Positions 3,497 to 56,250 of a stretch of DNA of 64,000 bases are shown piece by piece. The position numbers and the translations under genes are program-made. Each line of letters starts with the position of its first letter. The first letter of the stretch is position 1. This stretch comes from Ephemeroptericola cinctiostellae (GTDB lineage Bacteria > Pseudomonadota > Gammaproteobacteria > Burkholderiales > Burkholderiaceae). The notes beneath the pieces are model-generated. The model was not told where the DNA came from, ran no database searches, and saw only the letters and a program-made list of their open reading frames with translations. The stretch lies in the NCBI RefSeq assembly GCF_003339525.1, contig NZ_CP031124.1:2108001-2172000 (forward strand). Direction: 5' to 3'.

Positions 3497-3697
3497 ACAT
3501 TCTCCCCTTGAAGGCTTAAATGACATCAAAAACACCCATGGTTTTCATCAAAAATTTTTTTTAATCTTTGATTAAACATAGCATTTATTAGACATCATCT
3601 TCAAGCCATGATTGACATCATAAATACTTTCATCTATTAAACCAATCGATATATTTTCACTTATCATGTGAATTATTTTCACATCAAGGCAATCGTC

Positions 3698-4693
3698 ATG
3701 TTTAAACTGCCCCCCTTACCCGCCCTCCGCGCTTTTGAATCTGTCGCCCGCCTCGGCAGTGTGACGCGTGCAGCAGATGAATTGCACGTGACCCACAGCG
3801 CCATCAGCCATCAAGTCCGCGTGCTGGAAGAATATCTCGGCATTACCTTGATTGACCGCAGCGCAAGACGCATGCACCTCACCCACGATGGGCGAACTTA
3901 CGCATATCAGATTCGACAATCCCTACAGCAAATTGGCGGCATGACTGAACGCATCACCCAACGCTCGCAGTCTGAGTATTTAACCATTGGTGTTTTGCCT
4001 TCATTCGCAACCCATTGGCTGATTCCACGGCTGCCTTTATTTCGAAAAGAATACCCCGATTGGCGCATTGAGTTGGTGGCAGGATTGGACATGCTGGATT
4101 TTGATCAATCTCCTGTCGATTGCGCCATTCGTTTTGGAAACGTCTCGATGCATGGTTTGCGCAGCGAACCACTGATGGCTGAATGGCAGTTATTGATCGC
4201 GGAAGCCAATGACAGTCGTTATCACAGCGAACAAAGCGCACACGAAGCACTGACCATTGGACACTCATTATTGGCCAATGAAGACATCGCCAATTGGACG
4301 CTTGCCGCAGGCATTGACACACCAACACTGCATGAATCCATCATTGTCAATGACTCCAATCTTGCTTTAGAAGCCGTTCGAACAGGGTTGATTGGGTGCG
4401 CACTGATGCGTTGGAGCATTGCCGCCCATTGGATCAGTCAAGGACACCTAAAGAAAGTCACCCCACACATGTCCAAACACGTTTCAGGTTATCACCTTGT
4501 TTGGCCAAATCGCAGTCACGACTCAAGTAAACTCAATGTATTCAAAGCATGGTTAAAACAACAGTGCAGCGAATTTGAAAAACAAACACTGAACGGTGAC
4601 TTATTTAATCACGTCGATCAAAGCCAAGCTTTTACCTTTTTAAAAGCAAACACATTGAATCTTCCACTCACCACAATAGACAGCAATAAATAA
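3698..4693 (+). CDS. LysR-family transcriptional regulator (GcvA-like)
   Basis: A 331-residue DNA-binding regulator. The N-terminal winged HTH (residues about 5-65: LPALRAFESVARLGSVTRAA, HVTHSAISHQVRVLEEYLG) is followed by a periplasmic-binding-protein-like effector domain containing YLTIGVLPSFATHWLIPRLP and DCAIRFG, features typical of the GcvA/AmpR branch. The ATG at 3698 is chosen over an upstream GTG at 3668 because family members start a few residues before LPPLPALRAFE and AAGG precedes this ATG. It is divergent from the DUF2917/LysE genes across about 200 bases of AT-rich DNA, where it would be expected to bind. The C-terminal 40 residues are not conserved-looking. Confidence 0.9.
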   Translation: MFKLPPLPALRAFESVARLGSVTRAADELHVTHSAISHQVRVLEEYLGITLIDRSARRMHLTHDGRTYAYQIRQSLQQIGGMTERITQRSQSEYLTIGVLPSFATHWLIPRLPLFRKEYPDWRIELVAGLDMLDFDQSPVDCAIRFGNVSMHGLRSEPLMAEWQLLIAEANDSRYHSEQSAHEALTIGHSLLANEDIANWTLAAGIDTPTLHESIIVNDSNLALEAVRTGLIGCALMRWSIAAHWISQGHLKKVTPHMSKHVSGYHLVWPNRSHDSSKLNVFKAWLKQQCSEFEKQTLNGDLFNHVDQSQAFTFLKANTLNLPLTTIDSNK

Positions 4694-5100
4694 AATAACA
4701 ATAAAACCACAATAAAACAGCGATAAAGCAAATTGGACGCGATGAATACGATCAAAATGCAGTGGTTTTACGAGAGCCAGCGAACCATCCCATGCCTTGG
4801 TGGTTCTATTCTTCAACCCTGTTGCAATGGTTTTTTACCCATAAAACATCGATACTTCCCTTACCTCACGAGAACCGATGTGATCAAAAGTGCAGCAAAA
4901 CAACAGCATTTATGCCCATGTCTCATCACAAACCAGCCCAGAACATACCAATTTAAAACAGAACGACCATCCACTTCTGTGAATAATCATTTTATTTTTC
5001 ATGGGGTAAAATAAAGAATTACAATTATTCACAAACAAAGCCATTGCCATTCGATTGGTATTTACTTAGTAAATGATTACATTGCATCAAAAGGCACACC
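4694..5100. other. Intergenic region without recognisable gene
   Basis: About 400 bases between the LysR gene and the amine oxidase gene. A small open frame at 4733-5014 has no Shine-Dalgarno sequence, poor composition and no recognisable similarity, so I do not call it. The first 40 bases hold short AATAAAAC-type repeats. The last 60 bases are AT-rich and end with AAAAGG before the next ATG, so the promoter of the oxidase is probably here. Confidence 0.5.
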
Positions 5101-6399
5101 ATGTACGCCAAAGACGAGTTGCTCACACACAACTCATACTACGCCGCAACTTGCACCCCTCTTCCCGCCCAACCCAGCTTAAAAGGTGAACACACTTTTG
5201 ATGTCTGCATCGTGGGGGCGGGTTTGGCGGGTTTATCAGCGGCTTTAGAGCTGTCAGCGGCAGGTTACAGTGTTGCCATCGTTGAAGGCAAGCGCATCGG
5301 TTGGGGTGCTTCAGGTCGCAATGGCGGGCAAGCCATTGCGGGTTATGCATGCGATCAAGAGCCTTTTGAAAAACAACTTGGATTGGATCATGCAAAAACC
5401 GCATTCAACATCACAGTTGAAGGGCTTGATTTAATGCGTGAGCGCATCGCCAAGCACAACATCCATTGCGACTGGGTGGATGGTTACATGACCGCCAGTG
5501 TTAAACCCAAGTCCACACCTCGCTTATACGACTGGGCCGATCGCATGAGCGACACGTACAGTTACCCCCACCTGCAAAAAGTCAGCCCAAAAGACATGCC
5601 CAATTGGGTTGCTTCAGAACGTTACCATGCAGGTGTCATTGACAACAACAGCGCGCATCTTCACCCACTGAAATACACCCTCGGTATAGCACGTGCTGCC
5701 CTCAGCTCCGGTACCCGTATTTTTGAAAAAAGTTTAGTCACCCGAGTCAAGCAAGGCGTTGCAGGCGGCAATGCCACAATCAAAACAGCAGAAGGTCAAA
5801 TCCATGCGCAATTTGTGATACTGGCTGGTAATGTGTATTTGGATGGTGTTGCGCCAAAAATTGCCAATCGCATCATGCCAGTCGGCACATACATCGTCGC
5901 GACCGAGCAACTTGACCCCATTTTGGCCAATGGCTTGATCAAGAACCGCATTGCGGTGTGTGACAATAATTTTGTATTGGATTATTTCCGCACCACCCCA
6001 GACTCACGCATGCTTTTTGGTGGCCGCGTCAGTTACTCAGGACGGACTCCGCCGAACCTACCCAACGCCATGCGCCAGACCATGTTGCGCGCTTTTCCTC
6101 AGCTGCAACACGCTAAAATAGAATACTGCTGGGGCGGCTATGTGGACATCACCGTCAATCGCGCACCTGATTTTGGTCGCTTGGGGGACAACATTTACTA
6201 CCTTCAAGGCTTTTCTGGTCATGGATTGATTTTAACAGGCATTGCAGGCAAACTCGCAGCACAAGCCATTCAAGGTCAAGCCGAACGTTTTGATCTTTTC
6301 ACAAAGTTAAAACACCTGCCATTCCCTGGTGGACGTTCTTTCCGAACCCCTGCACTTGTTTTGGCCATGGCTTATTACCGCTTACGCGACTACCTCTAA
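5101..6399 (+). CDS. FAD-dependent amine oxidoreductase (PuuB/OrdL-like)
   Basis: A 432-residue DAO-family flavoprotein. The Rossmann dinucleotide-binding motif VGAGLAGLSAALELSAAGY lies at residues 38-56, followed by the GWGASGRNGGQ block characteristic of gamma-glutamylputrescine oxidase-like enzymes, and a C-terminal FAD-binding stretch (YLQGFSGHGLILTGIAGKLA). Family members oxidise secondary amines such as gamma-glutamylputrescine with O2 to an aldehyde, ammonia and H2O2. No other puu genes are adjacent, so the substrate stays open. The start is supported by AAAAGG seven bases upstream and the length is normal for the family. A strong terminator follows. Confidence 0.88.
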   Translation: MYAKDELLTHNSYYAATCTPLPAQPSLKGEHTFDVCIVGAGLAGLSAALELSAAGYSVAIVEGKRIGWGASGRNGGQAIAGYACDQEPFEKQLGLDHAKTAFNITVEGLDLMRERIAKHNIHCDWVDGYMTASVKPKSTPRLYDWADRMSDTYSYPHLQKVSPKDMPNWVASERYHAGVIDNNSAHLHPLKYTLGIARAALSSGTRIFEKSLVTRVKQGVAGGNATIKTAEGQIHAQFVILAGNVYLDGVAPKIANRIMPVGTYIVATEQLDPILANGLIKNRIAVCDNNFVLDYFRTTPDSRMLFGGRVSYSGRTPPNLPNAMRQTMLRAFPQLQHAKIEYCWGGYVDITVNRAPDFGRLGDNIYYLQGFSGHGLILTGIAGKLAAQAIQGQAERFDLFTKLKHLPFPGGRSFRTPALVLAMAYYRLRDYL

Positions 6400-6444
6400 G
6401 CCCATCCAACCGATTCACCACACTCGCATGCAACACAATCAGCA

Positions 6445-6474
6445 AAAGAGCAGCCCATGGGCTGCTCTTTTTCC
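6445..6474 (+). terminator. Rho-independent terminator after the amine oxidase gene
   Basis: A perfect 26-base palindrome (AAAGAGCAGCCC centred on ATGG) is followed by T residues. It lies about 45 bases after the stop codon of the oxidase. Confidence 0.85.
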
Positions 6475-6816
6475 CTTGTCAATCAAAACAGGTGGATGTG
6501 CGCAAAAATTCTTTACAACAAAAATGAGTGAGCAGTATACAATTAGAAATAATGTCAATTTAGTTGGATGAAAAGTTAAAAATCATTCTTTAAAAGTGTT
6601 AAGAAACAATTGAAAACCATCTGTTTTAGAAGTTTCGCAAATTTCAGACAAAATAGAACGATCGTTAAATTTTGCTAAAATGCACTCAAAACACACTTAC
6701 TACACTCAATTATTAAATAAACAGCACTCGCAACATCCTATTTTAAAGTATAATATCAATGAAATCCAATGGGCACACGAATGCAAGTGGGTTTCATTTG
6801 ACATAAAGGACACAAC

Positions 6817-7902
6817 ATGAACACTGAACATCCCGTCGAACACATTGAGCCGATTCCCGCAGGTGAACCACTGCCCGCGCGCAAAGTGCTTCGCTCGTGG
6901 TTGCTGCCATTGATGCAACAAGATACAGCGCGCGCCATGCGCTTGCTGGTGGTCGATTACATCATCTTTTTTGCACTGATTTTTGCAGCCATTGCCGCTC
7001 CAAATGGTTGGTTACGCCTGATCGCGAGTCTGCTCTCAGGTTACTGGATTGGCCGCTTGTTTATCATTGGTCATGACGCTTGCCATCAAAGCTATACCCC
7101 TCACCGCAAGTTAAACCGCATTTTAGGGCGCATCGCATTTTTACCGTCATTATCGCCTTACAGTTTATGGGAAGTGGGACACAACGTCATTCACCACGGC
7201 TTCACCAATTTAAAAGGCATGGATTTCATTTGGATTCCGATGACAAAAGCCGAATATGATGGCATGAGCGCGACTCGCAAAGCAATGGAACGCTTTTACC
7301 GCAGCGGCTTTGGTCCGTGGATGTATTACATGGTTGAGATTTGGTGGAAAAAAATGTATTTCCCCAATAAAGAACACAAACCGGGCAATCGCGAAGCTTT
7401 CTTTTGGGATGGTGTTTTGGTGTCTGTTTTTGCAGCCATTTGGCTGATTGCCATCGCTTTAATCGCCCCTGCTTTCGATGTCAGCTTGCTCTCTGCTGTA
7501 GTGACTGGTTTTGTCATTCCATTTATTTTCTGGAACGGCATGATTGGCTGGGCGGTCTACGTGCATCACAACCATGCGCGCATCCAATTTTATGACAACA
7601 AAAAAGAATGGGCGGCAGCCAATCCTTTCGTCACAACCACCGTTCACCTCACGTTTAATAAGCCTTGGGGTGCGATGATGCACCACATCATGGAGCATAC
7701 AGCGCATCATTTGGACATGACCATTCCTTTATATAAGCTCAAGGAAGCGCAAGATCGATTGGAAGAGTTACTACCAGGTCGCATTGTGGTGCAGAAATTT
7801 TCTGTAGGCTGGTACTTCAAAAATGCCAAACATTGCCGCCTGTATGACTATGAGCATAAGCAATGGATTGACTATGATGGCAGTCCGTCTAAAGCATATT
7901 GA
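6817..7902 (+). CDS. Fatty acid desaturase (membrane, di-iron)
   Basis: A 361-residue integral membrane enzyme of the FA_desaturase family. It has the three histidine boxes that bind the di-iron centre: HDACHQ at residues 86-91, HNVIHHG at 122-128 and HHIMEHTAHH near residue 290. Hydrophobic segments near residues 45-80 and 200-245 form the membrane core. Such enzymes insert a cis double bond in acyl chains, probably of membrane lipids, with electrons from a ferredoxin or cytochrome; the box spacing resembles omega-6/delta-12 types, which is an inference. The ATG follows ATAAAGGACACAAC, a good ribosome binding site. The roughly 340 bases upstream are AT-rich and contain TTTAAAGTATAAT near 6742-6754, a plausible -10 region. 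No regulator is adjacent. Confidence 0.9.
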   Translation: MNTEHPVEHIEPIPAGEPLPARKVLRSWLLPLMQQDTARAMRLLVVDYIIFFALIFAAIAAPNGWLRLIASLLSGYWIGRLFIIGHDACHQSYTPHRKLNRILGRIAFLPSLSPYSLWEVGHNVIHHGFTNLKGMDFIWIPMTKAEYDGMSATRKAMERFYRSGFGPWMYYMVEIWWKKMYFPNKEHKPGNREAFFWDGVLVSVFAAIWLIAIALIAPAFDVSLLSAVVTGFVIPFIFWNGMIGWAVYVHHNHARIQFYDNKKEWAAANPFVTTTVHLTFNKPWGAMMHHIMEHTAHHLDMTIPLYKLKEAQDRLEELLPGRIVVQKFSVGWYFKNAKHCRLYDYEHKQWIDYDGSPSKAY

Positions 7903-7937
7903 CCACTATTGACCACATGAGTGTTACATGAATAAAA

Positions 7938-7968
7938 AAAAGCCTCACTTTGAAAAGTGAGGCTTTTT
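7938..7968 (+). terminator. Rho-independent terminator after the desaturase gene
   Basis: The stem AAAGCCTCACTT/AAGTGAGGCTTT with a TGAA loop ends in a T run. It is flanked by an A run on the other side, so it could work in both directions. Confidence 0.85.
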
Positions 7969-8147
7969 CTACATCAAGTGCTATGAACAATCATCAGAAG
8001 AAGGCACCCCTTGCTGCACCCTATCGGCTTTGTTGACTTTTATTGCTTTATGCCCTCGCAAGCAACACATTACCAAAACATGCTTGCAACACCCTCTTGA
8101 ATCTTTCGTCCTAAACCGTATGAAGCAAAAATGATGCATTTAGGCCA

Positions 8148-8174
8148 TAAAAAACCCACCGAGGTGGTTTTTTT
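8148..8174 (-). terminator. Terminator between desaturase and cytochrome b561 units
   Basis: An A-run/T-run flanked hairpin, AACC(C)ACC-GAG-GGTGGTT, with one bulged base. It lies 45 bases past the stop of the cytochrome b561 gene on the minus strand. The 180 bases between this and the desaturase terminator show no gene. Confidence 0.65.
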
Positions 8175-8218
8175 ATTGAATCCAATGTTGTGCAATACAA
8201 TGGCCTAAGCCAAACAAA

Positions 8219-8740
8219 TCACATCATGCGTTTAAAGACATTGTCTTTGCTGACAATCAAATGTACGATTGCGCCCAACACATGCAAAGCCAGCAAAACA
8301 ACAAAGGCATCGGCACCCAAGCCATGCAACCCACCCAACTGTTCAGCCAAATCAATGTTTTTACCGATTAAAGTGGGCAGATTAAATAAACCAAAAAAAC
8401 TGGCAGGATAGCCAAATGCATTGCTGGTCAACCAGCCCATGAAAGGCACACCAAGCATCACCACATACAACAGGCCATGAACTGTTTTTTCAGCCAAATA
8501 CTGCATTGAACCCACGGCATTCACCGAACCAGGCACAGAATCTTTGGTGCGAATGCGATTGACCACCCGCAACACCGCCAAAACAAAAACCGTCACGCCC
8601 AGAGACTTATGCAGTCCCATCAAATCCTCATTGTCTTCCAACTGCCAACCAATAACCAAAGTGGCAATCATCAATAAAGCGATCAAACTGTGAAATAATT
8701 TCACAGACAATGGGTATTTTGCTGTGCTTACAGTACTCAT
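8219..8740 (-). CDS. Cytochrome b561 family protein
   Basis: A 173-residue inner-membrane di-heme cytochrome of the bacterial b561 (CybB/YceJ) family. Four hydrophobic helices are visible with the histidine ligand candidates in KLFHSLIALLM (helix 1), MGLHKSLGVTVF (helix 2) and LALHVLGAIVHLI (helix 4). Family members move electrons between the quinone pool and periplasmic acceptors; E. coli CybB oxidises superoxide. ATG 8740 is preferred over a TTG at 8746 because AAAGGA lies eight bases before it. It is monocistronic as far as can be seen. Confidence 0.87.
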   Translation of the reverse strand: MSTVSTAKYPLSVKLFHSLIALLMIATLVIGWQLEDNEDLMGLHKSLGVTVFVLAVLRVVNRIRTKDSVPGSVNAVGSMQYLAEKTVHGLLYVVMLGVPFMGWLTSNAFGYPASFFGLFNLPTLIGKNIDLAEQLGGLHGLGADAFVVLLALHVLGAIVHLIVSKDNVFKRMM

Positions 8741-14226: not shown

Positions 14227-14565
14227 TGGAATAAACACACCGATCAATCCCGCTGTTTATGAATGCCCCCATTCTCCAAAGACATCGCGCAACCCCACTT
14301 GTGTCGCCAGCGCTTCGATGGCAGCTCAATGGCGCTCATCCTTCAGTTAGTCCATGCTGAATTGATGCAATGGACATTTGAGTCCAGAATTTCGCGGAAT
14401 AGAAGCTAATCGTTGTCCGCCCCTCCTCTCTTGTACATCTTTGCAAAGAAGGTACCAGCATATTTTTTATATTCAAAATTATTTTTTTGTACCACTGTTT
14501 TTAGAAAGTAAACAAACAAAAACTTTACAGCATTTCGCAAACCCAGTATGATCAAGCCTCACATC

Positions 14566-14650
14566 AACCTGCGGGTGCTCACTGTTTTGTCTCAGTCGGG
14601 CTGAGAAACACCGCCAAACCTGAACAGGATAATCCCTGCGTAGGGAAGGA
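14566..14650 (+). promoter_or_regulatory. TPP riboswitch (THI element)
   Basis: The conserved aptamer blocks are present in order: GCGGGTGCTC, a variable arm, GGCTGAGAAA, then ACCTGAACAGGATAAT and the terminal CCTGCGTAGGGAA. Thiamine pyrophosphate binding to this fold represses downstream genes. The AAGGA Shine-Dalgarno sequence of ykoE follows the aptamer's last strand at once, and the ATG lies about ten bases later. No terminator hairpin is visible between aptamer and gene, so control is probably at translation initiation (inference). This supports the thiamine-precursor role of the transporter that follows. Confidence 0.93.
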
Positions 14651-14660
14651 AAACAATCAC

Positions 14661-15284
14661 ATGACAAGCCACATTTCAACTTCAAACACCAACAACCCCA
14701 CATCAATCATTCAACTGTTTCGCTCAATCACTTTACAAGAATGGATCACTGCAGCCGTCATCGCAGCGGCATTGGGCGTCGCTTATTGGGCTTGGACTTT
14801 AGTGTATGAGTTCACCAAGCCCTTTCTAAAACCATTTGGTCTGAAATATTTAACCTCTGGATTATGGATTCTCGGCTCCGTCTTTTTGTCCGATTTGATT
14901 CGTAAGCCTGGTATCGCTTTATTTGCCTCCATCGTGGCTGCATTTGTAGAAAGCATCATCACGCAATGGGGCATGTCTGCAGTCATTTATGGTGTGATTC
15001 AGGGGCTTGGTGCTGAATTGGTGTTTGCCTTATTTGCTTACAAAAATTGGTCCCTTCCCACCCTTTCACTCGCCGCTGCTGTATCCGCATTGTTCAGCTA
15101 CACCTATGATTATTTGACCAATGAATATGCCAGCTTATCAATGGGCTTGAACGCTCTGCAAGCCGCCTCATTCATCGTCTCAGCGGTTATATTGGGTGCA
15201 TTTTTAAGCCGCTACTTGGCCAATCGTTTACTGAAAACAGGTCTACTCGATAACTTTCTCATCGCCAAAAACCGCAGCTCATAA
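14661..15284 (+). CDS. ykoE: ECF transporter S component for thiamine/hydroxymethylpyrimidine (YkoE)
   Basis: A 207-residue membrane protein with about five to six hydrophobic segments and a short polar N-terminus. The order of genes (YkoE-like S component, double-ABC ATPase, EcfT-like protein) and the TPP riboswitch in front identify it as the substrate-binding component of a thiamine precursor importer, probably hydroxymethylpyrimidine or a related compound. Conserved-looking aromatic and acidic residues in the stretch AYWAWTLVYEF (near residue 42) fit ligand binding near the outer face. The ATG is preceded by AAGGA at the end of the riboswitch. The ATPase gene begins six bases after the stop, so translation is coupled. 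Confidence 0.88.
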   Translation: MTSHISTSNTNNPTSIIQLFRSITLQEWITAAVIAAALGVAYWAWTLVYEFTKPFLKPFGLKYLTSGLWILGSVFLSDLIRKPGIALFASIVAAFVESIITQWGMSAVIYGVIQGLGAELVFALFAYKNWSLPTLSLAAAVSALFSYTYDYLTNEYASLSMGLNALQAASFIVSAVILGAFLSRYLANRLLKTGLLDNFLIAKNRSS

Positions 15285-48136: not shown

Positions 48137-48322
48137 ACAATAAAGGTTCAGCATTCAGTCGTCATTTGAGCCCTCAACAAACGCCCCATCCTTGCAATCC
48201 ATCACAGGGCTTTGCCCTTCAAGCACATTTTTAAATGAAGCCCATAAAAATTACCGACTTTTTTTAACCCCGTCGGCTGTAAACCGTTAAAATACACACA
48301 ACCAATCACAGATGGATTTTCA

Positions 48323-49063
48323 ATGAACACTTTCGGCACGCGTTGCCCTGCTTGTTTGACCGCATTCAAAGTGAATGCCGACTTATTGCGCTTGCATGAT
48401 GGGTATGGCACGTGTGGTCAATGTGCGCATGCCTTTGATATGCAGGCCGCATTATTTCTGTTGCCCCCCCATGACATTCATTTCATTGATGTCCCTGCAA
48501 CAACAGATCAGCAAAGGCCAGAACTCAATGCCATCGTCACCATCCTGGATGACCGTGCTGAAACACCGATTGCAAAAGACACCAACACAGCCCCAATATC
48601 ACGAGATGGTGCCCTTAAACGCATCAATCCAGTCAGCTTTGTACCGCAACCAATCACGGACATGTTTTATCGTGTGACAAATAACAACGAGCTGCATGCA
48701 CCCGCGATTTTTGTACCATCCACCAAGTCAACAAAGCCAACCGAGCCGACTGAGTCTGCCCACGCAACAAACAACATCAGTTTTCACACAGAACAGCCAA
48801 CCACAACAGAAATCCCTTTAACCGCACCGATTGCCAAAGTGGCGCCTGTCGTCATCACTTACAATGCGCCTCCAGTCAGTGTGTTACAGGGGGTCAATGG
48901 TGGAAAATCAGTTCATACCAAATGGATCAATGCCGCTTGTTGGGTGCTACTTGTGGGCGCATGTTTGCAAACCGCAGGCCTGTTTTCTCGTGAAGTCAGC
49001 CGCACCCTACCTTTCACTCGAGCGGTGTATGAACAACTGCATTTACCCACGGATCGCGGATGA
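48323..49063 (+). CDS. Zinc-ribbon membrane protein, short DUF3426-like
   Basis: A 246-residue protein. The N-terminal zinc ribbon has two CxxC pairs (RCPACLTAFKV and YGTCGQCAHAF). A low-complexity Thr/Pro linker spans about residues 60-195 and a single transmembrane helix (about 206-225, INAACWVLLVGACLQTAGLF) lies near the end. DUF3426 proteins have this plan but normally continue for about 100 residues after the helix; here only about 20 follow, so the periplasmic domain is absent. The stop overlaps the ubiC start (ATGA). Function is unknown. Confidence 0.75.
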   Translation: MNTFGTRCPACLTAFKVNADLLRLHDGYGTCGQCAHAFDMQAALFLLPPHDIHFIDVPATTDQQRPELNAIVTILDDRAETPIAKDTNTAPISRDGALKRINPVSFVPQPITDMFYRVTNNNELHAPAIFVPSTKSTKPTEPTESAHATNNISFHTEQPTTTEIPLTAPIAKVAPVVITYNAPPVSVLQGVNGGKSVHTKWINAACWVLLVGACLQTAGLFSREVSRTLPFTRAVYEQLHLPTDRG

Positions 49064-49635
49064 GTCGTGCGCTTCATTCACCTTGGCAGTGGCATGTCCC
49101 GCGGATTGATTTGTCTCACACCCATTGGTTAACCGATTCAGGCTCTTTGACTCAAAAATTAAAAAACCACTGCCAGCATTTCTCAGTTCAACGCATCAAT
49201 CAATTGTCATCCCCTTTGAGTTTATCGGAAACCATCCCGATGCAGCTGCCCCGTGGTCGATCTGTATTACAACGTCAAGTGTTGCTCATTTGTAATGGTG
49301 TGCCTGCTGTGTTCGCCCACACCGTCACACCGATAGAACGTGTGGGTCGCGACTGGCCCTTTTTCAATCAATTGGGCAACCGCGCATTGGGCGTGGCATT
49401 GTTTTCTAACCCATTGATTCGTCGCGATTCGTTCGAATACACGCGCTTGTGCTCGCAAGATGACTTGTATCAAATGGCTCAAAGGGCATTAAATGGGCAT
49501 GGCTTTGACATTGCACTGCCCAGCCACTTATGGGCACGCCGTTGCGTGTTCACGCACACCCGCCATGCCAACAGCCGAATGATGGTCACAGAGGTCATGT
49601 TGCCATCCGTTTATGCGCTTCAACCCACCCCTTAA
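49060..49635 (+). CDS. ubiC: Chorismate pyruvate-lyase (UbiC-like)
   Basis: A 191-residue cytosolic enzyme that turns chorismate into 4-hydroxybenzoate plus pyruvate for ubiquinone synthesis. Family blocks seen are LTDSGSLTQKLK near residue 24, RSVLQRQVLLICNGVPAVFA with the active-site Arg, LGNRALGVALFS, and the C-terminal LWARRCVF. The usual partner ubiA is not adjacent. The start overlaps the zinc-ribbon gene by four bases, so translation is coupled. Confidence 0.88.
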   Translation: MSRALHSPWQWHVPRIDLSHTHWLTDSGSLTQKLKNHCQHFSVQRINQLSSPLSLSETIPMQLPRGRSVLQRQVLLICNGVPAVFAHTVTPIERVGRDWPFFNQLGNRALGVALFSNPLIRRDSFEYTRLCSQDDLYQMAQRALNGHGFDIALPSHLWARRCVFTHTRHANSRMMVTEVMLPSVYALQPTP

Positions 49636-49665
49636 ATCCCACTGGGGTTTCATATTTGGATCACC

Positions 49666-50460
49666 ATGCTCGACACCTCAGCCCTAAAAACCATGCGCCC
49701 CTTGTTCATCACGCCATGTTATGGCGCCATGGTGACCAGTGCATTCACCACCAGCCTGCTTGCGCTCAACAATGCACTGTGGCAAGTGGGCATGAACGCA
49801 CAGATCCAACTCAACCCTGGCGACAGCCTTGTGACCCGTGCACGCAATAATTCAGTCGTCCAATTTTTAGCCGCACCCGAGTTCACCCATTTATTTTGGA
49901 TTGATGCCGATGTCGGTTTCACGCCTGACGCAGTGTTTCGACTTTTGTTGGCAGATCGTGATGTGGCCGCAGGCGCTTACCCGATCAAACGCATCCATTG
50001 GCCTGAACAAATGCCAGCAGGCATGAGCAGCACTGACTTCATCAACGCGCACACCGCATTCCCTGTGAATGCAGCACACGGCAATCAAAGCATGGCTTTG
50101 CACATTGATGGCGATGGTTTTTTAGAGGTCTCTGAAGCCCCTACAGGTTTTATGGCGATTAAACGCGAAGTGCTGATCACCATGATGGCTCGTTTACCTG
50201 AACTCAGATACACGCCCGATGGCCCACCCGATCGCCCGCATCGAGATTTGTTTTACCGCTTTTTCGACGTGATGGTTGAACCCGAGACCAACCGTTATTT
50301 ATCTGAGGATTACGCTTTTTGCCGACGCTGGCGTGATTTGGGCGGTAAAGTCTATATCGACACCACCTCAAAACTACAGCACCAAGGGCCATATACTTTC
50401 TCTGGGGATTTTCAAGAAACTTACCGCTTAAATCCAGACATGGCCTGTGGCGGGGTTTAA
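49666..50460 (+). CDS. GT-A-fold glycosyltransferase-like protein
   Basis: A 264-residue protein with a nucleotide-sugar binding N-terminal half: RPLFITPCYGAMV, GDSLVTRARNNSVVQFL and WIDADVGF, where DAD at residues 80-82 is the metal-binding DxD-type motif. The block GAYPIKRIHWP and the C-terminal LSEDYAFCRRWRDLGGKVYID fit acceptor binding and catalysis in GT-A enzymes. No signal or membrane segment is seen. The acceptor is unknown; position after ubiC does not help. The codon use is like its neighbours. Confidence 0.78.
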   Translation: MLDTSALKTMRPLFITPCYGAMVTSAFTTSLLALNNALWQVGMNAQIQLNPGDSLVTRARNNSVVQFLAAPEFTHLFWIDADVGFTPDAVFRLLLADRDVAAGAYPIKRIHWPEQMPAGMSSTDFINAHTAFPVNAAHGNQSMALHIDGDGFLEVSEAPTGFMAIKREVLITMMARLPELRYTPDGPPDRPHRDLFYRFFDVMVEPETNRYLSEDYAFCRRWRDLGGKVYIDTTSKLQHQGPYTFSGDFQETYRLNPDMACGGV

Positions 50461-50660
50461 AAACAACAAGAAACTCACGGGACAGCCTACTCATCACAGG
50501 CGATTTGTCAGATAGTCTAGAGAATAAGCGACAAGGCATGGCTTGGCACAAGCGCAAAAATTCAGCTATACTGCTTTCAAGCAGCGCGTCTGTTTGCGCA
50601 TCTCGCACAAACACGGAAAGCCCACCTGAACGAAACCGAACAGGCAGGACATTCAAAGCA

Positions 50661-50696
50661 CAATCACAAACCCTCCGCCAAGATGACTTGTGATTG
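50661..50696. terminator. Inverted repeat between glycosyltransferase and bacteriocin-like genes
   Basis: CAATCACAA and TTGTGATTG, a perfect nine-base stem with an 18-base loop, lie 29 bases beyond the stop of the minus-strand gene. It lacks a T run, so it may be a weak terminator or a protein-binding site. The rest of 50461-50724 has no gene that I can support. Confidence 0.35.
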
Positions 50697-50724
50697 CGCC
50701 AAACAACATTCCAAAGGCGGCTGC

Positions 50725-51310
50725 TTACTTCGCTGGCTGCCAGAGCGATTCCCAGTTTTGCTCTGTAGCAAATACACCCAAAGCCCAGCATATAGGCTCT
50801 AAAACCAAGCGAATCAATTTACCCCGCCAACTACCTTTTTCAACCACACCCATTTGATACGCTAGCTCTTGAGCACGGTATTTAGCAATAGGAAACATCA
50901 ATTTTTCAGCAAGCTGAGATTTACGCATCAAACAAACATAAGGAATCGCCCAAACATGGTAGCCACGAACAGTTGTGGGTGACAGATTTTTAAATGTAAA
51001 CGCCATGTCCGCACGCCAAACTGTTTGATCAAGCATGCCTTTTCGATAGAAGTGAGTACAGATGACACGACAGCTGCTTGATGTTGCTCCGTGCACTGCT
51101 CCAACTACTGCGGCAGCTGCTGTAATAGCTCCTTGGTAAGGCCCTCCAATTCCTTGTACACTTTTAGCCGCGCTGCTAGCACCTTGACTAATAGGGCTCG
51201 CACAGCTGCTTGCTGAGAAACCACTACGGCTGCTGTTACCACCATCTCCATTACCATCTCGGCCACCACAAACTAACTTTAGTTCGTCTGCATTTAATAT
51301 GCAGTTGCAT
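50725..51310 (-). CDS. Bacteriocin-like precursor with double-glycine leader; apparent 5' frameshift
   Basis: The frame upstream of the obvious GTG at 51096 stays open to 51318 and encodes NADELKLVCGG, then a Gly/Ser/Ala-rich stretch containing GGPYQGAITAAAAVVGAVHG. The leader fits the double-glycine consensus: Glu at -8, Leu at -7, Val at -4, Gly at -2 and -1, Ile at -12. No start codon lies in that frame. An ATG at 51310 with AGGGT upstream reads MQLHI in the next frame, so removing one base near 51293-51298 gives a 16-residue leader and a 194-residue product. The last 100 residues (TTVRGYHVWAIPYVCLMRKS and WRGKLIRLVLEPICWALG) form a separate conserved-looking domain I cannot name. It follows two CPBP genes. 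Confidence 0.6.
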
Positions 51311-51324
51311 TTTTTACCCTACAT

Positions 51325-51756
51325 TCAAATAAAATGGACAAAACCTGTTAATACGTAATACATGGCGGAGAGTAAAACACAAAAAGAAACTCGCTTACTC
51401 CTTTGATATACCGCACACATCAACAGGGAAAAAAGAAACTTACTGATGCAATCAAATCCAAGCAACGCATCCGTTCGCTCCATGAAAGTATATGGCCTGC
51501 CATTGCCATACACGAACATCAGGTAAAACACAGAGGTGATGATATAGGCCATCCAAACGGGCACACGCCCACCCTCCAGCAGTTTTTGAAAAGTAAAGCC
51601 ACGAATGGCAAATTCAGACATGCAAACCCAAAAAAATACATATATAAAGTAATAAGCCCCGAAACCATCAAATTCATCAATCTGTATCAGTGAGCATGAT
51701 AAAAAAGCGACGTGTAAGGCAATGAAAAAGACAAACAACATTAGTATTTTTTTCAC
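51325..51756 (-). CDS. CPBP-like membrane protein with degenerate active site
   Basis: A 143-residue membrane protein with four hydrophobic segments. SEFAIRGFTFQKLLEGG at residues 47-63 aligns with AEEFAFRGYLLEKLL of its upstream neighbour, showing it is a relative of the CPBP (CAAX protease/bacteriocin self-immunity) family. The first motif-1 Glu is replaced by Ser47, and the later conserved His residues are not seen, so it is probably not a working protease and might act as an immunity or partner subunit (inference). The GTG at 51756 is chosen: AAGGGG lies seven bases before it and GTGA overlaps the upstream stop codon. Confidence 0.68.
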   Translation of the reverse strand: MKKILMLFVFFIALHVAFLSCSLIQIDEFDGFGAYYFIYVFFWVCMSEFAIRGFTFQKLLEGGRVPVWMAYIITSVFYLMFVYGNGRPYTFMERTDALLGFDCISKFLFSLLMCAVYQRSKRVSFCVLLSAMYYVLTGFVHFI

Positions 51757-52376
51757 ATTAATGCCCCTTGAAGTAAACTTTGAAGAACAAATAAAGCGTT
51801 CCAAGTTGCATGAAACAGAATATTGAATTTGATATTTCTGTATTTCAGGTAAATGGTATTGGCACAAAAGCTAAAAATAAACAAACCAATCCCCCTACCC
51901 AAGAAAGCACCATACATGGTATATCGCTCCCCTCCCTCTGGGGATATGAATGCATACCGAACAAAAACCCACAAGTCAATATGCACGCTGATGAATAGCA
52001 TGGTGACGATCACACTGGCATAATTCGCTTTAATATAAAACTTGCTCAACTTTGATGTTTTTAATAACTTTTCCAACAGATAACCTCGAAATGCAAATTC
52101 CTCGGCAATCGCGGCTAAAAACACTTGAACAAATATCATGTCAAGCAACCTCAATAAACTGAGAGATTGAGTTCGCCATGCGTTAGCCCCAAGGCCTCCA
52201 GTCAAAATCAAATACAGGAAAAGCAGCCCAATTGGCCACATAAAAAACTTGTCCTTGATGAGGTCAACCCAGCTGGATTTTGAATTTAAACTCCCCTTTT
52301 CACCTTCATTTGCATCGAGAGAAAACAAGCAATCGCCGCCACTCAATGCATCACTATTATTTTTATCTGGTTTCAA
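51753..52376 (-). CDS. CPBP family intramembrane metalloprotease-like (Abi/self-immunity)
   Basis: A 207-residue membrane protein. After a 45-residue polar start it has about five hydrophobic helices. Motif 1 is AEEFAFRG (Glu92, Glu93, Arg97), motif 2 FISVHI (His132) and motif 3 FHATWN (His189), the set expected of active CPBP proteases, which act on membrane substrates and include bacteriocin self-immunity proteins. No ATG exists in the frame; the TTG at 52376 is preferred because GGAG lies eight bases upstream, with another TTG at 52394 possible. It is coupled to the second CPBP-like gene, and an IS lies 107 bases upstream. Confidence 0.8.
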   Translation of the reverse strand: MKPDKNNSDALSGGDCLFSLDANEGEKGSLNSKSSWVDLIKDKFFMWPIGLLFLYLILTGGLGANAWRTQSLSLLRLLDMIFVQVFLAAIAEEFAFRGYLLEKLLKTSKLSKFYIKANYASVIVTMLFISVHIDLWVFVRYAFISPEGGERYTMYGAFLGRGIGLFIFSFCANTIYLKYRNIKFNILFHATWNALFVLQSLLQGALM

Positions 52377-52483
52377 TTCACAAACTCCAATCAAGATTAA
52401 GCATTTGCCTGATTACTCTTAAAAAAACATTCAAAGCCAAGCAAAAACCCATTTAAAAACACGTTAATTTTAACTTTAATTTT

Positions 52484-53193
52484 GGGGCTGTAGTAGATTA
52501 GCATCATGATATGCTAATAAAATGAAACTAACCCATTGTAAGTTAAGCAAAAATACCCAACGTAGGTTACTTGAGTATTTTGTGCTCGAAGTGACCGCAC
52601 GTTCGGCTGCCGATTTACTCGGCATACAGCCAAACAGTGCGGCCTTGTTTTACCGCAAAATCAGAGCAATCATTGCCTATCATTTAGAACTGGAGGCTGA
52701 TGAAGTCTTTGAAGGTCACGTTGAACTTGACGAGAGTTACTTTGCTGGTGCTCGTAAAGGTCGACGTGGCGTGGTGCGGCTGGTAAAACGGCTGTGTTTG
52801 GGATCTTAAAACGCGGCGGTAAAGCTTATACCAAAGTCGTTGTCGATACCAAAGCATCTACGCTAATGCCCATTATTACTAGCAAAATCGCGCCTGACAG
52901 CGTGGTTTATACTGATTGTTGTCGCAGTTACAATGCTTTGGATGTGAGCGGCTTTTATCATGAGCGCATCAATCATTCTCGATTGTTTGCTACAGGTAAA
53001 AACCACATCAATGGCGTTGAGAATTTTTGGAATCAAGCCAAACGTGTACTGCGAAAATACAATGAAATTAACCAAAAAACCTTTCCTTTGTTCCTGAAAG
53101 AGGGTGAGTTTAGATTTAACTACGGCACTCCAAAAAATCAGTTTAAAATACTCAAATCTTGGACTGGTATTTAACCTAATCTACTACAGCCCC
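52484..53193 (+). mobile_element. IS1595-family (IS1016-like) insertion sequence
   Basis: A 710-bp element bounded by perfect 18-base inverted repeats (GGGGCTGTAGTAGATTAG at 52484-52501 and its complement at 53176-53193). Flanks TTAATTTT and TTAATTTA agree in seven of eight bases, a probable 8-bp target duplication. It carries one transposase gene that is frameshifted, so it cannot move without help. It sits upstream of the CPBP/bacteriocin-like operon, oriented away from it. Confidence 0.92.
52522..53174 (+). pseudogene. Frameshifted IS1595-family transposase
   Basis: The first part (52522-52809) has a helical N-terminus, ARSAADLLGIQPNSAALFYR, and ELDESYFAGARKGRRG with the first catalytic Asp. 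The second part (from about 52794) has VFGILKRGGKAYTKVVVDTK, VYTDCCRSYNAL with the second acidic residue, and HINGVENFWNQAKRVLRKYN. Restoring one base near 52770 joins them as RKGRRGRGAAGKTAVFGILK, the normal family reading. The break looks like a deletion, not programmed frameshifting, since no slippery run is present there. Confidence 0.9.
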
Positions 53194-53269
53194 TTAATTT
53201 ATGTAAAAAGAAATAGCTATTTGTAAACAAATTCACAATTTTCACAAGCAATTGATTTTCAATTAAAAA

Positions 53270-53307
53270 CCATAAAAAATCGTGGGCATCCCCACGATTT
53301 TTTATGG
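53270..53307. terminator. Terminator after ndh, symmetric
   Basis: The perfect hairpin CCATAAAAAATCGTGGG/CCCACGATTTTTTATGG with a CATC loop lies 29 bases beyond the ndh stop and next to the IS. Confidence 0.85.
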
Positions 53308-53335
53308 TCATGCAACTTCATTGCAATCAGTGTAA

Positions 53336-54679
53336 TCAATGCAATTTCACATGAGGTTCAGTGCGCCGCACAATCATGCGTGCAACGGTATCCAAAGTCA
53401 CCTTTGTCGCCCCATGCAAAGCCAATTCATGTTTTTTATACAAAGACACGTACATCAACTTGGCAAACGCTCCCTCCACCATCAAGCTACCGCCCACCAA
53501 TCCGCCCATCATACTGCCCACCGTGCTGTACTCACCCAAAGACACCAAAGAACCAAAATCTTTGTACTGATAATCCTTCAAAGGCTCTCCTTTTAAACGA
53601 CGTCGCATTTGTGCGAGCATATGCGTTGCTTGTTGATTCGCCGCCTGTGCACGAGGAGGCACAGTGCCATTTTTTTCAGGCCACGGGCATGCGGCACAAT
53701 CTCCAATCGCAAAAATATCGTCATCCAATGTGGTTTGTAAAGTTTGCTTCACGACCAACTGGTTGATGCGATTGGTTTCCAAACCCGCAATGTTCTTCAA
53801 AAAATCAGGGGCTTTCACACCCGCCGCCCACACCGTTAACTCAGCAGGTATAAAGCTGCCATCGGCCAAATGTACGCCATCCTCAGCCACCCGCGCGACT
53901 TTAGCTCCCGTATGCACCTTGACCCCTTGTTTCGCAAGATAGGACTCCGTCGCATGTGACAAACGCGGTGGCAATGCAGGCAACACCCGATCAGCCGCTT
54001 CAATCACATGAATGCTCAAATCCTTGTCGGGATCAATCCGATCCAAGCCATAAGACACCACCTCGCGTGTGGTGCGATGCAACTCCGCCGCCAATTCAAC
54101 ACCTGTCGCTCCCGCCCCAATGATCGCCACTTGCAGCTGCTCAGGTCGCAATTGACCCGGTTGTGAATGCGCACGAATACAGGCATTGACCATCTTCCGA
54201 TGAAAGCGCGTCGCATCGTCAGTGGACTCCAATTTGAGTGCATGCTCTGCCACCCCAGGCGTACCAAAATCATTGCTCTGACTGCCGATGGCCATGATCA
54301 AAGTGTCGTATTGAAAGACCCGTTGACCCGTCACCTGAGTGCCATCTTCGTCCAAATGAGGCGCAACATGAACCTCTTTTTTTTCCCGATCCAAACCCGT
54401 CATCTCGCCCATCCGATAGCGAAAATGGTGCCAATGGGATTGCGCCAAAAAGTGCACTTCATGCGCATTCATGTCCATGCTGCCCGCCGCAATTTCATGC
54501 AATTTGGGCTTCCACACATGGGTTCTGGTTTTGTCAATCAAGGTGATTTGGGCTTTACCTTTTTTCCCCAACTGATCCCCCAAGCGTGTGGCCAACTCTA
54601 GGCCACCTGCACCCCCACCGACAATCACAATGCGATGGGCGGTGATACCCGTTTCATCATTTCTTGATGTGCTTCTCAT
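53336..54679 (-). CDS. ndh: Type II NADH dehydrogenase
   Basis: A 447-residue peripheral membrane flavoprotein that oxidises NADH with quinone without pumping protons. The FAD-binding motif IVIVGGGAGGLELATRLG lies at residues 17-34, the NADH-binding motif VAIIGAGATGVELAAELHR near residue 185, and the second FAD contact DDDIFAIGDCAACPWP near 320. The C-terminal hydrophobic/amphipathic segment (MMGGLVGGSLMVEGAFAKLM) anchors it to the membrane. The ATG follows AGGAGTGAGAG. It gives an NADH route beside the proton-pumping complex I. Confidence 0.92.
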   Translation of the reverse strand: MRSTSRNDETGITAHRIVIVGGGAGGLELATRLGDQLGKKGKAQITLIDKTRTHVWKPKLHEIAAGSMDMNAHEVHFLAQSHWHHFRYRMGEMTGLDREKKEVHVAPHLDEDGTQVTGQRVFQYDTLIMAIGSQSNDFGTPGVAEHALKLESTDDATRFHRKMVNACIRAHSQPGQLRPEQLQVAIIGAGATGVELAAELHRTTREVVSYGLDRIDPDKDLSIHVIEAADRVLPALPPRLSHATESYLAKQGVKVHTGAKVARVAEDGVHLADGSFIPAELTVWAAGVKAPDFLKNIAGLETNRINQLVVKQTLQTTLDDDIFAIGDCAACPWPEKNGTVPPRAQAANQQATHMLAQMRRRLKGEPLKDYQYKDFGSLVSLGEYSTVGSMMGGLVGGSLMVEGAFAKLMYVSLYKKHELALHGATKVTLDTVARMIVRRTEPHVKLH

Positions 54680-54834
54680 CTCTCACTCCTAAAATAATAT
54701 ATTTTTACCAATCGTTTTACCGCAAATGACATCATTCAAAACACCCAATAAAAAATACTCAACTTGAAATCGACCGATCCTCTCTTTCTGGCCATCTGCA
54801 TCTGACATTTCATATAAGACACAGGGGTAGGCAT

Positions 54835-54861
54835 AAAAAAACGCCAACTAAAAAGTTGGCG
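54835..54861 (-). terminator. Terminator after dctA
   Basis: The stem CGCCAACT-AAAA-AGTTGGCG is followed on the minus strand by a T run, 37 bases beyond the dctA stop. Confidence 0.85.
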
Positions 54862-54897
54862 CTTTAGGCATAAACATGGTGATTGACTCAGTTAAAA

Positions 54898-56250
54898 TCA
54901 TTTATCCATTTTATAAGTAATGTTATCGATGGCAGCTTCTGGCTCATCTGCATCCAAATCCGTTTCATTGTTCAATTGACGGTTCATGCGCTTTTCATCC
55001 AAATCACCAACCCATTTTGACACCACCACGGTCGCCACGCCGTTGCCAATCAAATTGGTCAAAGCACGTGCTTCTGACATGAAACGGTCAATGCCCAAAA
55101 TCAAAGCCAAACCTGCCACAGGCACATTGCCCACAGCCGCCAAAGTTGAGGCCAACACAATAAAACCACTGCCTGTGACGCCCGCTGCACCTTTTGAAGT
55201 CACCAGCAACACCGCCAACATGGTCAATTGTTGACCCAAGCTCATGGGTGTATTGGTTGCTTGCGCAATGAACACCGCAGCCATGGTCAAATAAATCGCT
55301 GTACCATCCAAATTGAATGAGTAACCCGTTGGAATCACCAAACCGACAGTTGATTTTTTTGCGCCCAGATTTTCCATTTTCGCCATCATGCGCGGCAACA
55401 CAGATTCAGACGATGATGTGCCCAATACAATCAACAGCTCTTCTTTAATGTAGCGGATGAATTTAAAAATTGAAAAACCATGGAATTTCGCCACCAAGCC
55501 CAAAACCACAAAGATAAAGAACAAGCAAGTGGCATAAAATGTGCCCATCAAAGCAGCCAATGAAAACAACGATTTGATGCCAAATTTACCAATCGTGAAA
55601 GCCATTGCACCAAAAGCACCGATGGGCGCAAGCTTCATGATGTAACCAATGATACAGAACAAGACGTGTGAGAATTTTTCAATGAAATCAAACACCAATG
55701 TGCCACGACCACCAAAACGGTGCAATGCAAAACCAAACAAAACGGCAAACAATAAAACTTGCAACATTTCGCCTTTGGCAAAAGCATCCACAATCGTGGT
55801 TGGAATGATGTTCAAAAAGAAATCTGTTGTCGAACCCAAACCTGTTTTCGCATAACCGCTGACCGTTTCCATTTTTTTGGCATCCAACGCCAATGCCGCT
55901 GGATCAGCATTCATACCCGCACCAGGCTGAACCACATTCACAATCACCAAACCCACGATCAATGCGACCGTGCTCATAATTTCAAAGTACAGCAAAGCAT
56001 AGCCACCTGTTTTGCCCACTTTTTTCATGTCTTCCATGCCCGCAATACCCACAACGACGGTGCAGAAAATAATTGGGGCAATCATCATTTTAATCAGTTT
56101 GATGAAACCATCTCCCAGTGGCTTCATCTGCTCACCCGTATAGGGTGAAAGATGCCCCACCAGAACACCAACGACAATTGCAACAATCACTTGAAAATAC
56201 AAGCTTTTATACAGCGGTTCTTTGACCCCCGTAGTGGCATTAATAGACAT
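54898..56250 (-). CDS. dctA: C4-dicarboxylate:cation symporter DctA
   Basis: A 450-residue inner-membrane transporter of the glutamate/dicarboxylate (DAACS) family that imports succinate, fumarate and malate with protons or sodium. The substrate-binding signature is [18 protein letters not shown], followed by [20 protein letters not shown] and the hairpin region [18 protein letters not shown]. About eight hydrophobic helices are seen. The start is preceded by AAAGGAGACA. No dctBD-like sensor pair lies next to it, so regulation is not visible here. Confidence 0.95.

Follow-up and report, generated by a model that had tools for sequence, protein, structure and literature searches.

A start-less double-glycine-leader gene beside two CPBP genes in Ephemeroptericola cinctiostellae and its wider family with a common C-terminal helical domain

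Proteins that join a double-glycine leader to a conserved helical C-terminal domain (CTD) are encoded by genes linked to those of C39 ABC exporters and HlyD-type partners, and this linkage is well supported. One copy of the family is found in Ephemeroptericola cinctiostellae, within the whole stretch of 64,000 nucleotides analysed here (the window), where it lies next to two genes for CPBP membrane proteins in a laterally acquired cassette. As a tentative reading, held at somewhat less than even confidence, we propose that the family consists of laterally moving, exported, antibacterial-type proteins about twice the size of a microcin, with a CTD that would dock to bacterial envelopes and an adjacent membrane protein that would protect the producer.

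The cassette and its three genes

The three-gene cassette is laterally acquired. It lies in a segment (50463-53337) that is missing from a genome of the same genus (G002) and represents an inserted island in the genome comparison; the flanks in G002, corresponding to 48234-50462 and 53338-55174 at 88-90% identity, are 170 bases apart and the intervening 2.9 kb is absent. Within the inserted segment, an IS1595-type element (52478-53200, plus strand) stands beside the cassette, with a PF12762 match in its second part. Its transposase (52522-53174) is split over two frames, which is probably no local assembly error, since another IS1595-type copy elsewhere in the genome matches it at 100% identity over 699 bases. 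The CPBP genes have a G+C content of 39% and the CTD gene one of 46%, with 46.9% for the window as a whole; that of the cassette is 41.5%, and because 3.6% of equally long window stretches are as low, composition alone is weak evidence for a lateral origin. The genome contains one copy of the CTD, which was found in none of 60 relatives and in one of 369 genomes of a class-level draw, namely its own. Elsewhere, it was present in 6 of 148 genomes in the genus of a Rhizobium laguerreae genome, already known ones included, and in 3 of 140 in the family of a Bibersteinia genome, two of them already known. In this latter family, one genome (G631, contig C1, 145468-147114; L068 and L071) has two CTD matches about 0.8 kb apart, a possible tandem array. 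Far from the cassette, the window also contains a TPP riboswitch match (14561-14663) of 55.5 bits, just over the gathering score of 54.3.

The three co-oriented genes of the original prediction are real, and all of them lie on the minus strand. CPBP-A (51753-52376, minus strand) is membrane protease-like with the CPBP motifs present, and it overlaps by GTGA with its relative CPBP-B (51325-51756, minus strand). Both score above the Pfam cut-off of 22.4 bits for PF02517, with 51.2 and 29.2 bits respectively, which bears out the predicted pair of overlapping CPBP genes. The start of CPBP-A at TTG 52376 is uncertain, TTG 52394 being in frame too. The CPBP motifs comprise Glu-Glu...Arg and a later His. 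Both the acidic pair and the histidines are present in CPBP-A, and its relatives P0113 and P0114 likewise retain the motifs. CPBP-B, which had been called degenerate, indeed retains only one Glu of the acidic pair and none of the histidines, but it looks maintained rather than decaying, because identical losses are common to its two database relatives, P0111 and P0112. Judged from sequence, the two CPBP genes, one intact and one motif-poor, thus look maintained as a pair. Two relatives were found for each CPBP protein at E<=0.001 at the search sensitivity used, the genome's own protein aside. No CPBP was found near 40 contig loci (phmmer, both CPBPs as query, E<=10), and the close CPBP link is therefore confined to one lineage. 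In Ursidibacter arcticus (L013, 7514-8572), a 231-aa membrane protein with a PF02517 score of 17.1 bits, below the cut-off of 22.4, is located downstream of a leader-type peptide on the same strand, and is possibly a second case of a CPBP protein beside a leader peptide in a Gram-negative.

The third gene is an open frame of 197 codons from stop to stop (50725-51318, minus strand). It encodes LNADELKLVCGG, followed by a Gly/Ser/Ala-rich stretch and the separate C-terminal domain; on the minus strand, the leader core ILNADELKLVCGG occupies 51262-51300, the variable Gly/Ser/Ala-rich linker 51070-51261 and the CTD, of about 114 residues, 50728-51069. The leader had been described as fitting the double-glycine consensus at all key positions, which holds for Glu -8, Leu -7, Val -4, Gly -2 and Gly -1 but not for residue -12, which is Leu and not Ile. 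The view of the window copy as an intact gene found no support. No ATG, GTG or TTG stands ahead of the leader in the frame 51318-50725, and the frame offers none until GTG 51096, past the leader. A different frame, ending after 19 codons and a stop (51251-51310, minus strand), is opened by the ATG at 51310, 14 bases past the CPBP-B stop. As assembled, the leader protein is not encoded by any single frame from a normal start. Since the leader frame has no start codon, the window copy is read as broken or as an assembly error; it is probably dead, or mis-assembled. The Pfam model Bacteriocin_IIc scores 16.7 bits on the window frame, below its cut-off of 27.1. In the closest relative, P0001, the same leader type lies behind an ATG, and the end of P0001 consists mostly of sequence beyond the stop of the window gene. 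Among other copies, one (L011) has a leader frame without ATG, GTG or TTG, that of U. arcticus has leader and CTD in separate open pieces, and a Rhizobium copy (L027; L057/L058) is broken within the CTD.

Leaders, exporters and small membrane proteins

A bacteriocin-type leader had been predicted, with its recurrence in homologues as the point to look for, and both are upheld: of the 109 homologues returned by a protein search, 42 match the leader pattern, which occurs in 4 of 496 neighbouring ORFs of at least 100 aa, and in P0001 the leader is preceded by its ATG. Among the remainder, 66 do not match, although some of these have looser leaders by eye, and one is without the CTD start.

Twelve of the 44 loci examined are of the leader type (L005-L008, L010, L011, L013, L018, L019, L047-L049). 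An HlyD gene lies within about 9 kb in 12/12 of them and a C39 gene in 11/12, as against 1/32 and 0/32 for the other loci (Fisher p about 6e-10 for HlyD), in a count where many contigs are short and L028 (cut at its contig end) is grouped with the other loci. L005 encodes its C39 part in two frames, and L011 has a short HlyD. The independent leader-type cases are fewer than 12, because two pairs of loci (L019 with L049, L047 with L048) are near-copies. The exporter layout appears in the annotation of two Vibrio plasmids and one Rhizobium plasmid.

The leader-type genes are also accompanied by a small ORF with a membrane segment, which adjoins 10 of 11 such genes, or 9 of 11 minus a spurious one lying within the HlyD gene of L047; this set includes L028 and leaves out L048 and L049. 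In the comparison sets, such an ORF is found beside 9 of the 87 control genes and beside 2 of the 28 carriers of other kinds. The sole locus without it, L019, has a near-copy (L049) with an annotated 63-aa gene. Nine of the small membrane proteins were scanned with Pfam, and none scored above cut-off. The two CPBP proteins occupy the place of the small membrane ORF in the window, and the predicted role of this pair as immunity candidates gains from the fact that membrane proteins stand where immunity genes would be.

The window copy was thought to depend on a distant exporter. This is possible, because the genome holds an intact C39 ABC and HlyD pair and 11 of the 12 leader-type loci are near a C39 gene. 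The pair, the one intact C39/HlyD pair in the genome, is distant from the window (L050 7071-10821; contig C1, about 1.632-1.636 Mb), with the Cys motif seen by eye, and has its own 51-aa double-glycine-leader peptide with a Cys/Pro/Thr repeat, in a compact microcin-like locus. At another site in the same genome (L051 716-9378; C1, about 1.763-1.771 Mb), an RTX protein with an M10 peptidase match adjoins an RTX-type exporter, the C39 domain of which is without the Cys motif by eye.

In Rhizobium, a second double-glycine-leader protein, Gly/Ala-rich and of 80 aa, is encoded between the CTD gene and the exporter (L019 10762-11004; L049 10763-11005); it scores 17.3 bits with Bacteriocin_IIc, below cut-off, and its arrangement is as in two-protein Cdz systems. 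On a Vibrio europaeus plasmid (NZ_CP064859.1; L048 8567-11163), proteins annotated with a YopT-type cysteine protease domain and a TcdA/TcdB catalytic glycosyltransferase domain are encoded upstream of the CTD gene and exporter.

The C-terminal domain and its carriers

The CTD is the conserved part of the protein and its end. In 102 of 108 homologues, the protein stops 112-126 residues past the CTD start, the remaining six being shorter (66-103). The median pairwise identity among 41 leader-type members is 60% in the CTD and 17% in the linker. Across 128 distinct CTDs, the columns that are at least 90% constant include W18, D21, G36, W40, M48, R49, R65, E68, K84, R87, E91 and C94, with the conservation of the first columns being circular, as these CTDs were chosen by a VICT-type pattern. 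AlphaFold2 predicts five main helices for the CTD (mean pLDDT 87.7) and an unstructured linker, with block means of pLDDT 40-49 over residues 21-80.

That the domain is separate and unrecognised had been predicted, and the searches made in family libraries and in the PDB yielded no significant match to it. Pfam on 17 carriers gave a single match within the CTD, PF07310 in one carrier, which at 14.1 bits against a cut-off of 22 was taken as chance. PHROGs did not match the window ORF and had three weak hits within the CTD among 15 other carriers (E 0.011-0.078), while NCBIfam (window proteins only) and PADLOC (8 proteins) gave none for the leader-CTD ORF. Open-access word searches, from which subscription journals are mostly absent, found no description of the CTD or of this protein type, and no CTD homologue with another proven role was met.

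The linker had been proposed to be a pore-former of the Gly-Ala-zipper kind, an idea that the analysis does not support. GxxxGxxxG occurs in 20 of the 42 leader-type homologues (59 in total in these members versus 34.6 expected from shuffles), a moderately hydrophobic 19-residue stretch in 10 of 42, and the region is unstructured in the AlphaFold2 model, the conserved part being the CTD. Since the linker is seldom membrane-like, no obvious killing part would be left if the CTD only docks. For this reason, the CTD may be the payload itself, a toxic enzyme or membrane-active domain for which the leader, linker and other N-termini are delivery routes and which phages carry as an ejected or lytic aid. 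This is unlikely in our estimation. The contrast in identity between CTD and linker, the many conserved charged residues and the strictly C-terminal place, as in toxins, all suit a payload, but a toxic domain would need protection, and the carriers without a leader seldom have the small membrane partner (2/28; few loci). Additionally, Ig-like, LysM and pilin-like proteins among the carriers fit a payload poorly.

Pattern-limited scans for the CTD gave 27 loci in genome contigs and 13 in viral contigs. The N-terminal parts of the carriers vary, being of the double-glycine-leader, Sec-type, pilin-like, Ig-like, LysM or phage virion-region kind. Among annotated phages, 2 of 50,697 records contain the CTD, both of them HMO-2011, and among plasmids 10 of 72,556 (2 Vibrio and 8 Rhizobium). 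The carrier of Puniceispirillum phage HMO-2011, phage1322_49 (762 aa, annotated hypothetical), has the CTD at its C-terminus at about 36% identity, and its gene sits between the portal and coat genes. It has the CTD in common with the window family but is without a leader and without a nearby exporter. In a comparison of predicted structures, the CTD fold had four matches to viral models at E<=0.001; the best, with a TM of 0.90, is a 762-aa BFVD entry (S4S2E0) that is probably phage1322_49 itself. Further carriers contain Ig-like repeats (He_PIG, 5 stretches) or LysM; by eye, one (L016) has a prepilin-like N-terminus and two (L009, L014) have Sec-type signals. The L016 locus contains a run of four prepilin-like genes (3627-8445, by eye), one with the CTD, perhaps as exchangeable tips, and this CTD-bearing gene has a thrombospondin-type match just under cut-off.

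Such display-type companions, together with the Rhizobium and Vibrio plasmids among the carriers, would agree with a family of secreted or displayed adhesins rather than bacteriocins, in which the exporter puts a sticky CTD outside the cell to hold on to surfaces or hosts, with the small membrane ORF as an accessory of export. We regard this as distinctly improbable, as class II microcin loci, in the excerpted text of PMC10233263, combine the same elements (a leader, C39, HlyD and a small membrane ORF), and the second Gly/Ala-rich leader protein of the Rhizobium loci also speaks against it. It is very improbable that the window makes the CTD only, from GTG 51096, with the leader resemblance as a functionless remnant: the start-less leader frame, the open frame of 123 aa from that GTG and two homologues that start shortly before the CTD (P0009 and P0022, which may reflect gene-calling or fragments) favour it, but the leader-exporter linkage across the family, the leader behind an ATG in P0001 and the apparent lack, by eye, of a clear ribosome-binding site suitably spaced ahead of the GTG argue to the contrary.

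Comparison with known systems and a proposed role

In its workings, the system would resemble those of microcins or Cdz, but its products exceed the sizes that define either. Class II microcins of the microcin V type have the double-glycine leader, C39 ABC exporter, HlyD-type partner and adjacent small membrane ORF in common with the family, and measure about 5-10 kDa according to the excerpts of the 2022 review (PMC10233263), in which the largest confirmed cargo is 90 residues. The mature length of the 42 leader-type members is 145-235 residues (median 178), outside the class II microcin range. Excerpts of another paper report that export by the microcin V exporter fell sharply at 116 residues (PMC10231218), so that the exporters of the CTD family would have to pass longer cargo. 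Unlike class II microcins, the family has a long conserved helical C-terminal domain that is common to phages, and the exporter is non-adjacent in the case of the window. The contact-dependent glycine-zipper bacteriocins (Cdz) resemble it in the type I exporter, the leader ending in G[G/A/S], the membrane immunity protein (a candidate here), the patchy distribution and, in Rhizobium, the second leader protein. The Cdz-like set of PMC5380434 spans 60-151 residues and has a C-terminus that is short and polar, whereas the CTD family ends in a folded domain of about 114 residues and falls outside that length and C-terminus, with GxxxGxxxG in 20 of its 42 leader-type members. The CPBP pair recalls the CPBP/Abi self-immunity proteins PlnI, PlnL and SkkI of lactic acid bacteria (excerpted text of PMC8538875), in that CPBP membrane proteins lie beside a double-glycine-leader gene; here, by contrast, an intact and a motif-poor protein form an overlapping pair in a Gram-negative genome. 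Polymorphic toxins, described in the accessible part of PMC3482391 as an N-terminal trafficking region with exchangeable C-terminal toxin domains, were considered and set aside, as the pattern here is the reverse, with the linker variable and the CTD conserved.

Returning to the exported antibacterial-type protein as our preferred reading, the window holds a cassette of lateral origin, made up of genes for two lineage-specific CPBP membrane proteins and one gene of the wider family that now has no start codon. In intact members, the leader (mostly 15 or 23 residues) would send the mature protein through a C39 ABC/HlyD type I exporter, which would cut the leader off. The variable, mostly unstructured linker would carry or space the five-helix CTD, for which binding to some feature of the bacterial envelope is the most likely role, and the secreted protein would act on other bacteria, while the adjacent small membrane protein, or the CPBP pair in the window, would shield the producer. 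The computed evidence itself establishes the family, its leader, the linkage to exporter and small membrane ORF and the insertion in the window; secretion, killing, immunity and docking are what we infer for the family. Export is suggested by the strong linkage to C39/HlyD, docking by the company that the CTD keeps with phage, pilin-like, LysM and Ig-like proteins and by the use of the C-terminus for uptake in class II microcins (excerpts of PMC10233263), and immunity by position and by the protection that Abi-family proteins give against some bacteriocins of lactic acid bacteria (as excerpted from PMC8538875). Several findings count against this reading: the conserved charged CTD residues would suit an enzyme too, the mature proteins are longer than the cargo that the microcin V exporter passed well (excerpts of PMC10231218), the linker is seldom membrane-like, the close CPBP link belongs to one lineage and the window copy has no start.

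On a broader and rather doubtful view, the CTD may be a general module for envelope docking or entry that is swapped among type-I-secreted antibacterial proteins, surface appendages and the virion proteins of phages, so that several unrelated delivery machines use a single binding domain, in addition to a class of double-glycine cargo about twice the known microcin size. If the proposed role is right, a microcin-type exporter would serve cargo that includes a folded domain some 114 residues long. An unannotated domain family would then link phage particles with secreted antibacterial proteins, and the CTD would be a handle for annotators on many proteins that are now named hypothetical.
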